The notes below the pieces were generated by a model. That model searched no databases. It was not told where the DNA came from and saw only the letters and a program-made list of their open reading frames with translations. A program made the translations under genes and the position numbers. Shown here piece by piece: positions 1,890 through 12,008 of a stretch of 12,008 bases of DNA (its first letter is position 1; the number at the start of each line of letters is the position of its first letter). This DNA is from Burkholderiaceae bacterium (lineage in GTDB: Bacteria > Pseudomonadota > Gammaproteobacteria > Burkholderiales > Burkholderiaceae): assembly GCA_030151165.1 (NCBI GenBank), contig JASLEM010000381.1:1-12008 (forward strand), written 5' to 3'.

Positions 1890-1944
1890 GAACAGGAGCG
1901 AGCCTGACGCGACGAAGCCCCGTGAACCGGCGCCGTTGCACGTG

Positions 1945-3243
1945 ATGAGGCCGGAGAGCGTCGCGGCAAGCCCTCGACACCTCGAGCAGTTGCTCCAGGA
2001 CGTCGCAGTGAAGGTGGGCTCCTTGCGTGAAGCGCGCCTGCGCTTCTCCGACCAGCTCGCCCCCGACTTCAGCCTGTTCGACTACCTGCGTTCGGACGAG
2101 GTCGGACTGTCGCGCTGCCTCGCGGGCCTGCTGGATCCGGGCGGCAGCCACGGACAGGGGACGCTGTTCCTGCGGCGCTTCCTCGAAACGATCGATCGGC
2201 CGGACTGGCGGGTGGACGGCGAGCGATGGAAGGTCGCGCTCGAGCAGCAGGCCGCGGGACAGCGCCGCATCGACATCCATCTCTCGGCGCGCGCCGGCCT
2301 GATCGGCATCGAGAACAAGCCGTGGGCCGCCGACCAGGACGGGCAACTGCGCGACTACGCGAGCCACCTGGCGAAGGATGCCGGAGGCCGGCCGTGGGTG
2401 CTCGTCTACCTGTGCGACCACGAACCTTCGCAAGCCAGCCTGAGCAAGGAGGAGTCCGCGCGCCTGGGCGATGAAGGCCACTTCATCCACGTCGATTTCG
2501 AGCGTGTGGCGCATTGGCTGGAGCGCTCGCTGGCGTCGGTGCGTGCGCTCCAGGTGAGAGTGTTCGTCGATGAGCTTGCCAGGTTCATTCGACGGGAAAT
2601 TCGAGGGGAGCTGGACATGACCGAGAAACTGTTGACCGCCGACGTGGTGACGGCCAACGCGCACCAACTCGCCGCGGCTTTCGAGATCGCCAATGCGCTG
2701 CCAGAGGTCAAGGCGCGCCTGTTGCGTTCGTTCGAGCAGCGGCTGCGATCCGTTCTGGCGCAGGAAGGCATCGGGTTGCAGGCCCAGCCTGGCCTCGAGC
2801 GCGGCGAGAAATGGACGACTCTGTCCATGGAGTTCTTCGCCGGGCAGGATGTCCTGCTCAAGTTCGGCTTCGAGGCGCCGCAACACAACGGCTTCATCTG
2901 GGGCATGGCCCGACGCGACGACGGCATCGCCAAGTCGCCGGAGCGATGGCAGGTCGTGCGGGACGTGATGACCGAAGCGTATGGCGTGGGCCAGTCCAGC
3001 GACCACTGGATGTGGCATCGACGCAGTTCGAGCGAACTGTTCTGCGGAGATTTCGCGAACTGGAACCTCAACCCCGATCCCTGGCTATTGCTGCGCGAGG
3101 GCGCGGTGGATTCCGATGGCCTTTCGCTCGAGCGGCGCGTTGCTGGCGTCGCGTGCGCCGTGCGCGAGGCGTTCACGCGTGCAAACCGGCTCGAGGCGCT
3201 GTCCAGCCTGCGCCGCTCGCAGGTCGAAGAGTCCTCGCCGTAA
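1945..3243 (+). CDS. PD-(D/E)XK nuclease family protein
   Basis: This 432-residue protein (from ATG 1945) matches the PDDEXK_4 type of the PD-(D/E)XK nuclease superfamily. The core is visible: RRIDIHL with the metal-binding Asp at about residue 110, then GIENK with Glu123 and Lys125, then QDGQLRDY, the usual Q..QL..Y helix. The N-terminal part (DEVGLSRCLAGLLDP, then HGQG.LFLRRFL) is also typical. Proteins of this family are often linked to phage defence or mobile DNA, and many have no assigned substrate. The active-site triad appears intact, so nuclease activity is plausible. The C-terminal half (about 210-432) has no motif I recognise. Alternative starts at TTG 1936 and GTG 1942 are in frame; none has a clear ribosome site. 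It follows the small repeat protein and may be co-transcribed with it. Confidence 0.8.
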   Translation: MRPESVAASPRHLEQLLQDVAVKVGSLREARLRFSDQLAPDFSLFDYLRSDEVGLSRCLAGLLDPGGSHGQGTLFLRRFLETIDRPDWRVDGERWKVALEQQAAGQRRIDIHLSARAGLIGIENKPWAADQDGQLRDYASHLAKDAGGRPWVLVYLCDHEPSQASLSKEESARLGDEGHFIHVDFERVAHWLERSLASVRALQVRVFVDELARFIRREIRGELDMTEKLLTADVVTANAHQLAAAFEIANALPEVKARLLRSFEQRLRSVLAQEGIGLQAQPGLERGEKWTTLSMEFFAGQDVLLKFGFEAPQHNGFIWGMARRDDGIAKSPERWQVVRDVMTEAYGVGQSSDHWMWHRRSSSELFCGDFANWNLNPDPWLLLREGAVDSDGLSLERRVAGVACAVREAFTRANRLEALSSLRRSQVEESSP

Positions 3244-4588: not shown

Positions 4589-6436
4589 TCACTGCGGGTA
4601 GCTCGTCACGGTGACGGGCGTGCTCGGGTTCGCGATCGTCGCGGAGCCGCCGGTATTGTTGACGACGTTCAGCACGCCGCCCTTGCCGTTGGTCGGATCC
4701 AGGAAGATCGTGAGCAGGTCCTGCAGGCTGCCGCGCGGCAGGGTCGCCGGCACCTCGAAGGCGTGCGAGGCGAAGATGTCGAGCCCGTGGTTGAAGAAGT
4801 TGTAGCTGCCCAGGCCCCAGGCGTTGAACGCGTGCACGTTGTCGGCGACCTTCAGCGCGGCGTAGCCGAGCGTCGTGGGCGAGGACTGCCAGGCGGCCTG
4901 CGACGGCGGGTCGTACGGCATCTCGTTCTGGAAGAACACCACCTGGCCGCGCTCGCCGTTCCAGATCGTCTGGTACTTCTGGTAGTGCTCGACGAACAGG
5001 CCGTAGGCGACCACGTCGTCCCCGTTGACGACGACGCCGGTGTCCGCCTTGTTGGCCGTCCAGCCGACGCCGTTGCCGTGGTCGGCGCGCCAGGCCCAGA
5101 CGTCGTCGAGGATCGCGCCGCGCGCGCTCACGGCGAGGCTCGTGGTGGCCGAGCCGGCGGTCGCGCCGCCGATGCGGAAGAAGACGTCGTGCAGCGCGAT
5201 CGGGTCGTTGACGTCGCCGTCGTGGGGCAGCAGCAGCCCGGCCTGCAGCAGCACGGGCGAGTTGACCGGCCCGGCGTCGAACAGCACGCCGGTGACGTCG
5301 ATGCCCGAGACGTTGGCGAGCTGCATCGCGACGCGCCCGCCCTGCGGCACGAGCGTCGGGAAGCCCAGGCCCAGCACCACGGTGTGCGGGTTGCGCACCT
5401 GCAGCGTCGCGTCGAGCTTGTAGACGCCCGGCGTGAGGATCAGGTTCTGGCCGGCTTGCAACGCCTGGTTGATGGTCGACGCGGAGTCCGTCGGCTTCGC
5501 GATGAAGAAGTTCGCGATCGGGATCGACGTGCCGGGCGTCGGGCCCGCGGACCACGTCGTGCCGCTCGAGTTGCGACGCAGCGCGGGCACGAAGACGGCG
5601 TAGTTGCCCTGGGCGTCGACGTACAGGTACGGTGCCTCGCGCGTGACCGGGCTGGTGGCGAGCGTCGTGTACGGGCCGCCGCAGCCGCCGGCCGGGAAGC
5701 ACGTGCCGGGCGCGCCCACCACGCCCGAGAAGACCTGGTTCCAGACGCCGTTCGACCAGCCGCCGAGCACGCTGTCGCGCACGAGCCATTGCTGTTGCGA
5801 GCCGTTGATCACGGTGCCGGTGAACGCGGAGTCGGCGATGAAGCCGCCGCTGGCGTACGACGGGCCGCTGCAGTAGTCCATCAGCGTGGTCGCGCCGTTG
5901 ACCCGCACGCGCCGCATCGGCGCGGCCTGCGAGACGGCCCAGAACTCGCCGGCGTGGCAGCCGAAGGAGGCGTTGTTCACTTCGATGTCGAGGTTGGACA
6001 TCGAGCGCCAGAAGTTGTTCAGCGCGATGCAGCCGCTGCTGTCGCACTGGTTGTAGGCGTTGATCGAGCCGTTGAGCACGACGTCGGTCGGCGAGCGGCC
6101 GAGGCCCGCGACGGCCGTGTAGTAGCCGACCTGGAAGTTCAGCGGCGCGGCGTTCGAGCCGTACGTGCCGGGCATGAACAGCAGCGCGACGCGTTCGGGG
6201 CCGAACTGGTCGGGGATCTGCTGGGCCGCGACGGCGTCGACGACGGCCTGGATGTCGCTGGTCGCCATCGCCGGCGTGAAGATGTGGACGTTCGGGCCGA
6301 AGTCGGGCGGCGCGGCGAGGGCAGCGCCCGCCGCGAGGCTGGTGCCTAACGTCGATATCCATCGGACGAATCGGCGCGATCCGCGTTGGCGGGGCGCGGC
6401 GGCGCGAGGCGCGCGGGGAGTCGCAAGTGAACGCAT
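4589..6436 (-). CDS. Secreted right-handed beta-helix protein
   Basis: A 615-residue exported protein. The ATG at 6436-6434 is supported by AGGAG eight bases upstream. The N-terminus is long and basic, then hydrophobic, with a likely cleavage after ALA at residue 41; the arginine pair in GSRRFVRW (20-27) is close to, but not a full match for, a Tat motif. The mature part is rich in Gly, Asn, Val and short strands typical of a parallel beta-helix. Residues 447-513 carry the most distinctive blocks (WAWRADHG, GVGWTANKADTGVVVNGDD, YGLFVEHYQKYQTIWNGE, FFQNEMPYDPP), which I associate with large secreted proteins of actinobacteria and Burkholderia, often mislabelled adenylyl cyclase and probably related to pectate-lyase or GH55-type folds. 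A polysaccharide substrate is plausible and is supported by the LacI-type palindrome upstream. No catalytic residue can be named. Confidence 0.82.
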   Translation of the reverse strand: MRSLATPRAPRAAAPRQRGSRRFVRWISTLGTSLAAGAALAAPPDFGPNVHIFTPAMATSDIQAVVDAVAAQQIPDQFGPERVALLFMPGTYGSNAAPLNFQVGYYTAVAGLGRSPTDVVLNGSINAYNQCDSSGCIALNNFWRSMSNLDIEVNNASFGCHAGEFWAVSQAAPMRRVRVNGATTLMDYCSGPSYASGGFIADSAFTGTVINGSQQQWLVRDSVLGGWSNGVWNQVFSGVVGAPGTCFPAGGCGGPYTTLATSPVTREAPYLYVDAQGNYAVFVPALRRNSSGTTWSAGPTPGTSIPIANFFIAKPTDSASTINQALQAGQNLILTPGVYKLDATLQVRNPHTVVLGLGFPTLVPQGGRVAMQLANVSGIDVTGVLFDAGPVNSPVLLQAGLLLPHDGDVNDPIALHDVFFRIGGATAGSATTSLAVSARGAILDDVWAWRADHGNGVGWTANKADTGVVVNGDDVVAYGLFVEHYQKYQTIWNGERGQVVFFQNEMPYDPPSQAAWQSSPTTLGYAALKVADNVHAFNAWGLGSYNFFNHGLDIFASHAFEVPATLPRGSLQDLLTIFLDPTNGKGGVLNVVNNTGGSATIANPSTPVTVTSYPQ

Positions 6437-9939: not shown

Positions 9940-9942
9940 GTG
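9929..9942 (+). promoter_or_regulatory. Ribosome site inside gntR end, stop-start junction
   Basis: AAGGAGAA lies in the last codons of the regulator gene, and its TGA stop (9937-9939) is followed with no gap by the GTG start of the binding-protein gene (TGAGTG). This supports the GTG start and translational coupling of regulator and transporter. Confidence 0.75.
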
Positions 9943-10734
9943 AGCCTGCAACGACGTCCCTTCATCGCACTGGCCTTCGCAGCGGCCGCGCTGCTGTCCA
10001 CCGCCGTCGCGCACGCGCAGGGCGCGCTCGACGGCGTGATGGCGAAGAAGTCGATCACCATCGCGATCCCGACCGACTTCCCGCCCTACGGCTTCGTCGG
10101 CACCGATATGGCGCCGCAGGGCCTGGACATCGACATGGCCAGGCTGATCGCCGCGAAGCTGGGCGTGGCTGTCGAGCTGGTGCCGGTGTCGAGCGCCAAC
10201 CGCATCCCGTACCTCGTCACGAGGAAGGCCGACCTCGTGATCTCCACGCTCGGCAAGACGCCCGAGCGTGCGCAGGTGATCGACTTCACGAGCGCCTACT
10301 CGCCGTACTACCAGGCGGTGTTCGCGCCCAAGACGACGGTCATCAAGTCCGCGGCCGACCTCGCCGGCAAGACGATCTCGGTCACGCGCGGCGCGCTCGA
10401 GGACACCGAGCTGACGAAGATCGCGCCGCCCGCGGCCGACATCAAGCGCTTCGAGGACAACAACGCGACGGTGTCGGCGTTCGTCTCCGGCCAGGTGCAG
10501 GTGATCGCGACCGGCGCGTCGGTGGCCGGCAACATGATGGCGCGCAACCCGCAGCTGAGCGTCGAGTACAAGCTGCTGCTCAAGGAGTCGCCCAACTTCA
10601 TCGGCGTGGCCAAGGGCGAGGACAAGCTGCGGCTCAAGGTCGACGAGATCATCGCCGCGGCGAAGGCCAGCGGCGACCTCGACAAGCTCGCGATGAAGTG
10701 GCTCGGCCGGCCCGCGGGCGACCTGCCTAACTGA
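9940..10734 (+). CDS. Amino-acid ABC transporter periplasmic binding protein
   Basis: A 264-residue family 3 solute-binding protein. Residues 1-26 are a Sec signal peptide (MSLQRRPFIALAF..., cleavage after AHA). The mature part shows the family's order of blocks: ITIAIPTDFPPYGF at 39-52, GLDIDMARLIAAKLGV at 61-76, RKADLVISTLGKTPERAQVIDF at 95-116, with Arg110 as the residue expected to hold the ligand carboxylate, then the DLAGKTISVTRG hinge region. It captures an amino acid, or a related organic compound, in the periplasm and delivers it to the two permeases that follow. The ligand cannot be named from sequence. It sits between the GntR regulator and the permeases, 31 bases before the first. 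Confidence 0.93.
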   Translation: MSLQRRPFIALAFAAAALLSTAVAHAQGALDGVMAKKSITIAIPTDFPPYGFVGTDMAPQGLDIDMARLIAAKLGVAVELVPVSSANRIPYLVTRKADLVISTLGKTPERAQVIDFTSAYSPYYQAVFAPKTTVIKSAADLAGKTISVTRGALEDTELTKIAPPAADIKRFEDNNATVSAFVSGQVQVIATGASVAGNMMARNPQLSVEYKLLLKESPNFIGVAKGEDKLRLKVDEIIAAAKASGDLDKLAMKWLGRPAGDLPN

Positions 10735-10765: not shown

Positions 10766-11443
10766 ATGATCCATCTCGACTTCGCCGCCGTCCTCAAGGA
10801 CTGGCCGTTGCTGCTCCAGGGCGCGCTCTTCACGCTGGGCCTGACGGCGATCGCGTCGCTGCTGGGCCTCGCGCTCGGCATCGCCTGCGCCCGCGCGCGC
10901 ACGCACGGCGCCGCGCCGCTGCGCGCGGCCGCGGCGGCGTACGTCGAGCTGATCCGCAACACGCCGTTCATCGTGCAGCTGTTCTTCATCTTCTTCGGCC
11001 TGCCCAGCCTCGGGCTGCACCTGGGCTCGGAGACGGCGTCGATCATCGCGATGACGCTCAACCTCGGCGCCTACGCGGCCGAGATCGTGCGCGCGGGCAT
11101 CGACGGCACGCCGCGCGGCCAGATCGAGGCCGCGCGCAGCCTCGCGATGACCGAGGCGCAGGTGTTCCTCAAGGTGGTGCTGCCGCCGGCGCTCGGGCGC
11201 GTCTGGCCGTCGATGGTGAGCCAGATCGTGATCGTGATGCTGGGGTCGGCGGTCTGCGGGCAGATCGCGGCGCAGGAGCTGAGCTACGACGCCAACCTCA
11301 TCATGAGCCGCAACTTCCGCTACTTCGAGGCGAACTTCGTCGCGGGCGCGGTGTACCTCGCGCTCGCGGTCGGCGTGCGGCATGCGCTGAACTGGGCCGG
11401 GCCGCGCTGGATCTTCGGCCGGCCGCTGCAGGCAGGGCACTGA
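10766..11443 (+). CDS. Amino-acid ABC transporter permease (HisM/HisQ type)
   Basis: A 225-residue inner-membrane permease of the polar amino-acid class. Hydrophobic segments begin near residues 15, 65, 85 and 185, and YVELIRNTPFIVQLFFIFFGLP is the family's hallmark block. The cytoplasmic coupling loop is intact (GQIEAARSLAMTEAQVFLKV, then VLPPAL); the usual Gly of EAA...G is Ala here. Length is normal for the family. It would pair with the next permease to form the channel. The ATG at 10766 has a weak ribosome site. Its TGA stop is followed after one base by the ATG of the next gene (TGAGATG). Confidence 0.92.
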   Translation: MIHLDFAAVLKDWPLLLQGALFTLGLTAIASLLGLALGIACARARTHGAAPLRAAAAAYVELIRNTPFIVQLFFIFFGLPSLGLHLGSETASIIAMTLNLGAYAAEIVRAGIDGTPRGQIEAARSLAMTEAQVFLKVVLPPALGRVWPSMVSQIVIVMLGSAVCGQIAAQELSYDANLIMSRNFRYFEANFVAGAVYLALAVGVRHALNWAGPRWIFGRPLQAGH

Positions 11444-11444
11444 G

Positions 11445-11930
11445 ATGGTCGACTTCTCGGTCTGGCAAATCCTCTGGAATCTGCTGCTGGCGGCGCGCTG
11501 GACGGTGGTGCTGTCGCTGATCGCGTTCGTCGGCGGCGGCGTCGTCGGCCTCGCGCTGCTGGTCGCGCGGCTGCGGCGCTGGCGCGGCGTCGGAGCGGCG
11601 GTGTCGGCGTACGTGCAGGTGTTCCAGGGCACGCCGCTGCTGATCCAGTTGTTCGTCGCGTACTTCGGGCTGGCGCTGTTCGGCTTCAACGTGTCGCCGT
11701 GGATCGCGGCCTCGGCGGCGCTGACCTTCTATGCGAGCGCCTATCTGACCGAGATCTGGCGCGGCTGCGTCAACGCGATCCCGAAAGGGCAGTGGGAGGC
11801 CGCCGACAGCCTCGCGCTGAGCTTCGGCGAGAAGCTGCGCCACGTCGTCGGCCCGCAGGCGCTGCGCATCGCGGTGCCGCCGACGGTGGGCTTCGTCGTC
11901 CAGCTGGTCAAGGGGACGGCGCTCGCGTAG
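11445..11930 (+). pseudogene. Second amino-acid permease, truncated at inverted junction
   Basis: The reading frame encodes 161 residues of a HisM/HisQ-type permease: an N-terminal membrane segment (LLLAARWTVVLSLIAFVGGG), the block YVQVFQGTPLLIQLFVAYFG, and the EAA coupling loop (KGQWEAADSLALSFGEKL), again with Ala in place of the conserved Gly. It ends in QLVKGTALA followed by TAG at 11928-11930. Family members run to about 215-225 residues, so the last two membrane segments are missing. The stop is created where the sequence changes into an inverted copy of this gene's own middle part. Up to the junction the gene is undamaged, so either the truncation is recent or the join is an artefact. 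If real, the product would probably not function. Confidence 0.85.
11651..11741 (+). repeat. Inverted repeat, left copy inside permease gene
   Basis: This 91-base part of the second permease gene (GTTCGTCGCG... to ...GCGAGCGCC) recurs in inverted orientation at 11918-12008. The alignment is ungapped with six differences, at 11672, 11676, 11703, 11705, 11726 and 11732. The two arms are separated by 176 bases. Confidence 0.93.
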
Positions 11931-12008
11931 AACGTCAGCGCCGCCGAGGCCGCCACCCACGGCGACACGTTGAAGCCGAACAACGCGAGCCCGAAGTACG
12001 CGACGAAC
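11918..12008 (-). repeat. Inverted, diverged copy of permease fragment
   Basis: Read on the minus strand, this segment encodes FVAYFGLALFGFNVSPW, then VAASAALTFYASA, the same peptide as the permease gene with one Ile-to-Val change. Four of the six nucleotide differences are at third codon positions and two at first positions. The copy runs to the window edge and may continue beyond. It joins the intact permease sequence at GGCGCTCGC (11919-11927), a short stretch that fits both partners. Confidence 0.92.

Follow-up and report, generated by a model that had tools for sequence, protein, structure and literature searches.

An inverted, diverged stub at a contig end, probably a chimeric join with a sister-strain allele, that mimics a broken permease gene

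The window, that is, the whole 12,008-nt stretch of DNA that was analysed, carries the genes of a polar amino-acid ABC transporter near its right end. A family 3 solute-binding protein is encoded on the plus strand at 9940..10734 (PF00497, E 3.8e-33), followed by a first permease subunit of 225 aa (10766..11443, plus strand; PF00528, E 1.4e-17; TIGR01726 above the cut-off) and by a second permease subunit of 161 aa (11445..11930, plus strand; PF00528). This second permease scores 94.6 bits against TIGR01726, well over the curated cut-off of 42.2, which places it among the polar amino-acid ABC transporter permeases. Two related loci (L008 and L012) show the order solute-binding protein, permease, permease and then ABC ATPase. 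The window shares domain content and gene order with these systems, but in the window a junction truncates the second permease at 161 aa. Elsewhere in the window, a 615-aa open reading frame on the minus strand (4589-6436) has no Pfam match at E 0.001, a PD-(D/E)XK nuclease superfamily protein (PF14281) is encoded at 1936-3243 on the plus strand, and a WYL/WCX-domain protein is encoded near the latter gene on the minus strand (535-1527). The tRNA search and the Rfam search (gathering score) returned no element.

The window permease ends at codon 161, and the 119 other relatives listed are 215-218 aa long. The codon following GTALA is TAG in the window and a Ser codon in all 82 distinct ungapped relatives (92 loci, of which 90 passed the filter and 82 were distinct), so that the Ser codon expected in the preliminary description of this DNA is indeed the rule. 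The last bases of the window, 11918..12008 (minus strand), are the reverse complement of 11651..11741 (plus strand), with 6 mismatches in 91, no gaps and 176 nt between the two arms. The inverted copy is thus confirmed as it was first reported. The body copy covers permease codons 70-99 in full. The inverted arm, which appears to be a variant allele of this permease whose source is probably a close relative, reaches the contig end. No other of the 270 inverted pairs reported for the window is as long; the runner-up (within the 25 longest of the 270, which were listed) measures 37 nt at 73%.

We then considered the differences between the arms, which are 93% identical. The six differences sit in five codons. 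The synonymous changes are Leu CTG/CTC, Leu CTG/TTG, Thr ACC/ACG and Tyr TAT/TAC; the sole residue-changing codon is Ile ATC/Val GTG, which holds two of the six differences. The preliminary description had recognized this kind of change correctly but had counted five of the six mismatches as synonymous or in the Ile/Val codon, whereas all six are. When six substitutions were drawn at random (100,000 trials), at most one changed residue was obtained in 0.5%, 0.8% and 1.1% of the trials at transition weights of 1, 2 and 4, respectively. Because all the differences are either synonymous or in one Ile-to-Val codon, sequencing error is disfavoured as their source, and the arm has the look of an allele that evolved as coding sequence in its own right rather than of an error-laden copy. 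The same observations bear on the idea that this very gene underwent a recent inverted duplication, or that this allele folded back on itself, the six differences being later mutations or read-end errors. The 93% identity is what one would expect in that case, but six differences that are all synonymous or Ile/Val, with so few random trials behaving likewise, make the idea hardly credible.

Comparison with related genomes places the arm and the body in one gene. In the 8 genomes reached through the loci, forward homology to the window gene halts at window 11926-11928. In seven of them, G002 to G008, the arm aligns with the antisense strand of the gene that the body matches, and nowhere else in those genomes. 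The eighth (G001) gave no match to the arm; direct comparison with its locus (L001, L087) likewise yielded nothing meaningful for either the arm or the corresponding body stretch, and this genome is thus uninformative. Further matches to the permease gene in these relatives are 67-72% alike or short, except for a 117-base partial copy in G004. This copy, on contig C39 of a MAG (31316-31432), is a direct match of 85% to the permease start, located just upstream of the full match at 31535-32016; it represents a partial duplication or another assembly oddity.

The junction itself was sought more widely. The last 150 bases of the window found matches in 90 of 399 genomes of the family of G003 (121 matches by row count, two candidates being scored per genome), and none of the 121 truly crosses the junction. 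With three exceptions, the matches are confined to the part left of the junction (their ends at query position 70 or lower) or to the arm (their starts at query position 56 or higher). These three, which reach query position 90 or 91, were fetched and aligned, and turned out to be forward paralogues that do not carry the junction. A search of plasmids gave 410 records with 60-80% identity to the gene, and none of the best 20 reached the end of the arm. Five of these 20 (H1-H4 and H8) extend 22-28 bases beyond the 9 bases shared at the join, and two of the five, H4 and H8, were identified as forward genes that align onward by chance. The phage search gave no match and the viral contig search gave no relative.

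The position of the arm is also informative. A protein identical to the window permease, P0001, is listed on one contig of 12008 nt, the same length as the window. The window is therefore almost certainly the whole contig, and the arm is its tip rather than an internal part of a longer sequence. Inverted matches near an end were found in 3 of 95 loci (L047, L054 and L089), a set that includes 19 contig ends by hand count and from which no rate is claimed. At the contig end of another MAG, bases 1-33 of L047 repeat bases 185-215 of that contig in inverted orientation, with a gap of 2 bases in the 33 nt; this stub may be an end chimera of the same kind or else a natural repeat. In L054, the last 200 bases, which are contig-interior, match nearby sequence in inverted orientation twice, over 121 nt (79%) and 113 nt (75%), and L089 is a locus with full flanks.

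A real tail-to-tail inverted duplication must be weighed against these results. In such a structure, two diverged copies of the operon would face each other with the centre deleted, both being cut at the junction. The coding history of the arm would suit it, a lineage-specific rearrangement need not show in relatives, and the 9-base microhomology described below also suits template switching in vivo. However, in seven of the eight relatives the arm matches the body's own gene and no other place, no match in the 399 genomes truly crosses the junction, the site is at a contig end, and the structure would require three things at once: another copy of the operon, an inversion and the truncation of two genes. 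We consider this alternative improbable. Its more detailed version, a strain-specific inverted duplication of the transporter operon in which microhomology-driven strand switching deleted the centre and truncated both permeases, is if anything less probable still; if true, it would be a transporter-operon rearrangement of limited interest. The initial description, in which an inverted copy of the permease gene breaks that same gene, is not upheld as biology: the break falls at a contig tip, no match in the searched genomes has the structure, and the arm matches the same orthologue, not a second operon. The permease gene is probably unbroken in the living bacterium.

Which sequence, then, did the arm come from? 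Both the arm and its body counterpart are matched by 41 of the 92 loci, 29 of them over at least 85 nt. At the DNA level, the arm is nearer in 14 loci and the body in 2, with 8 ties, when same-genome repeats are left out (24 loci); with the repeats, the counts are 16, 2 and 11 (29 loci). At the peptide level the outcome is even, the arm being nearer to 56 of the 120 listed proteins and the body to 45, with 19 ties. The arm's 30 residues are identical to the corresponding part of P0002, an intact protein of 216 aa that is listed on a 3,997-base contig and is 94% identical to the window protein, and no other exact match exists among the 120 listed proteins. A paralogue in a second operon was set aside as first-choice donor, given that arm and body match one and the same orthologous gene in seven of eight relatives and that the arm's peptide equals that of P0002. 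From this comparison of sequences, we infer that the six differences reflect a donor that was a close sister strain in the sample.

Just before the junction (window 11892-11912), the permease reads FVVQLVK in place of the usual FLVQVIK, a motif absent from the 119 other listed relatives. Each of the three variant residues is found singly in relatives, and the trio occurs only in the window's protein among the 120 listed. The window also differs from P0002 at this place, and P0002 itself therefore need not be the donor. Bases unique to the window number 2 in 11895-11924 and 4 in the 15 other full bins. A mosaic with a third source just left of the join is suggested by these observations, which are too weak for such a claim. 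As to whether both segments stem from one molecule, which is usual but not required in inverted chimeras, the arm differs from 11651-11741 at 6 of 91 positions, yet the bases leading up to the junction may be those of the strain that supplied the arm.

The join is made at a short shared sequence. As the preliminary description had noted, GGCGCTCGC is present there, at 11918..11926 on the plus strand (9 bases), complementary to 11733-11741, and the homology reaches 11 bases if the true gene continues with GT, as it does in L090. When inverted joins were placed at random within the operon (400,000 trials), 0.027% of them shared at least 9 bases. This low chance favours a join directed by base pairing. 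Moreover, the second segment is inverted, the intervening stretch is lost and short complementary bases lie at the join, as in inverted chimeras; the two segments are also near each other, 176 nt apart and both within one gene in seven of eight relatives. By analogy, an inverted join with 9 shared bases and loss of the intervening stretch may be taken as the signature of strand-switch chimeras. The length of the shared sequence is also relevant to a join made by the assembler alone, in which the contig would have been wrongly linked to a reverse-strand stretch of a sister strain. Both the contig-end position and the sister-like allele content of the arm would fit such an error. Nevertheless, short-read assemblers normally need overlaps or k-mers longer than 9-11 bases, so that the join was probably already present in a physical molecule or a read. 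A purely computational origin thus seems very unlikely to us.

Taken together, the evidence points most strongly to a chimeric fragment. On sequence grounds, the last 91 bases very probably derive from such a fragment, carrying a sister-strain allele and incorporated at the contig end. The following scenario can be proposed. While the DNA was being amplified or made into a library, a 3' end lying at GGCGCTCGC on the sense strand of the permease would pair with GCGAGCGCC, its complement, some 185 bases further upstream on a nearby sense strand, belonging to the same molecule or to a neighbouring one. Extension of the paired 3' end would then produce the inverted copy and drop the stretch in between. 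If a close sister strain supplied the strand that was copied, the six coding-compatible differences would follow. The assembler may have taken up the chimeric fragment where coverage or the graph ended, which would put it at the contig tip. Two variants of this scenario would yield the observed sequence: either one sister-strain molecule folded back and the assembler tied it to the contig by way of the 176 bases that separate the arms, or the join was made between molecules of two strains. The first variant qualifies the earlier assertion that the copy is not a fold-back of the same molecule. Indeed, the arm and 11651-11741 are different alleles, as that assertion implied, but the chimeric read may itself be a fold-back of the sister strain. 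Among the explanations first put forward, the evidence best supports the one in which related strains or paralogues were joined into a chimera at the library or the assembly stage; of these two sources, a related strain is favoured over a paralogue.

These findings call for caution in the interpretation of contig ends. Slightly diverged inverted stubs at such positions can mimic broken genes or inverted paralogues and can leave false truncated proteins in databases, P0001 probably being one of them.

Similar molecules have been described in other settings. According to the figures given for MDA in PMC1855051, of 475 chimeras, 85% had an inverted segment and had lost the stretch in between, 2-21 complementary bases were present at more than 70% of the junctions, and nearby sites were favoured. 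The window resembles the inverted chimeras of that account in its inverted second segment, its missing stretch, the short complementary bases at the switch and the closeness of the two sites. It differs from them in one respect: the MDA chimeras, as described there, are mostly intramolecular, both sides matching one genome, whereas the window arm differs from the body at 6 of 91 positions. A second class of comparable molecules is formed by end repair of FFPE material; in the description given in PMC8458033, single strands pair at short reverse-complementary sites that are often 50-200 bp apart. On the default curves of that source, the spacing of 176 and the length of 9 found in the window correspond to upper tails of 9% and 24%, respectively. 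The PDSM model, as outlined in PMC10908179, allows strands of a 'similar molecule' to pair. The end-repair chimeras of these two sources were described in human DNA, unlike the bacterial window; as they are presented there, they share with it a short reverse-complementary seed, sites about 50-200 bp apart and an inverted copy.
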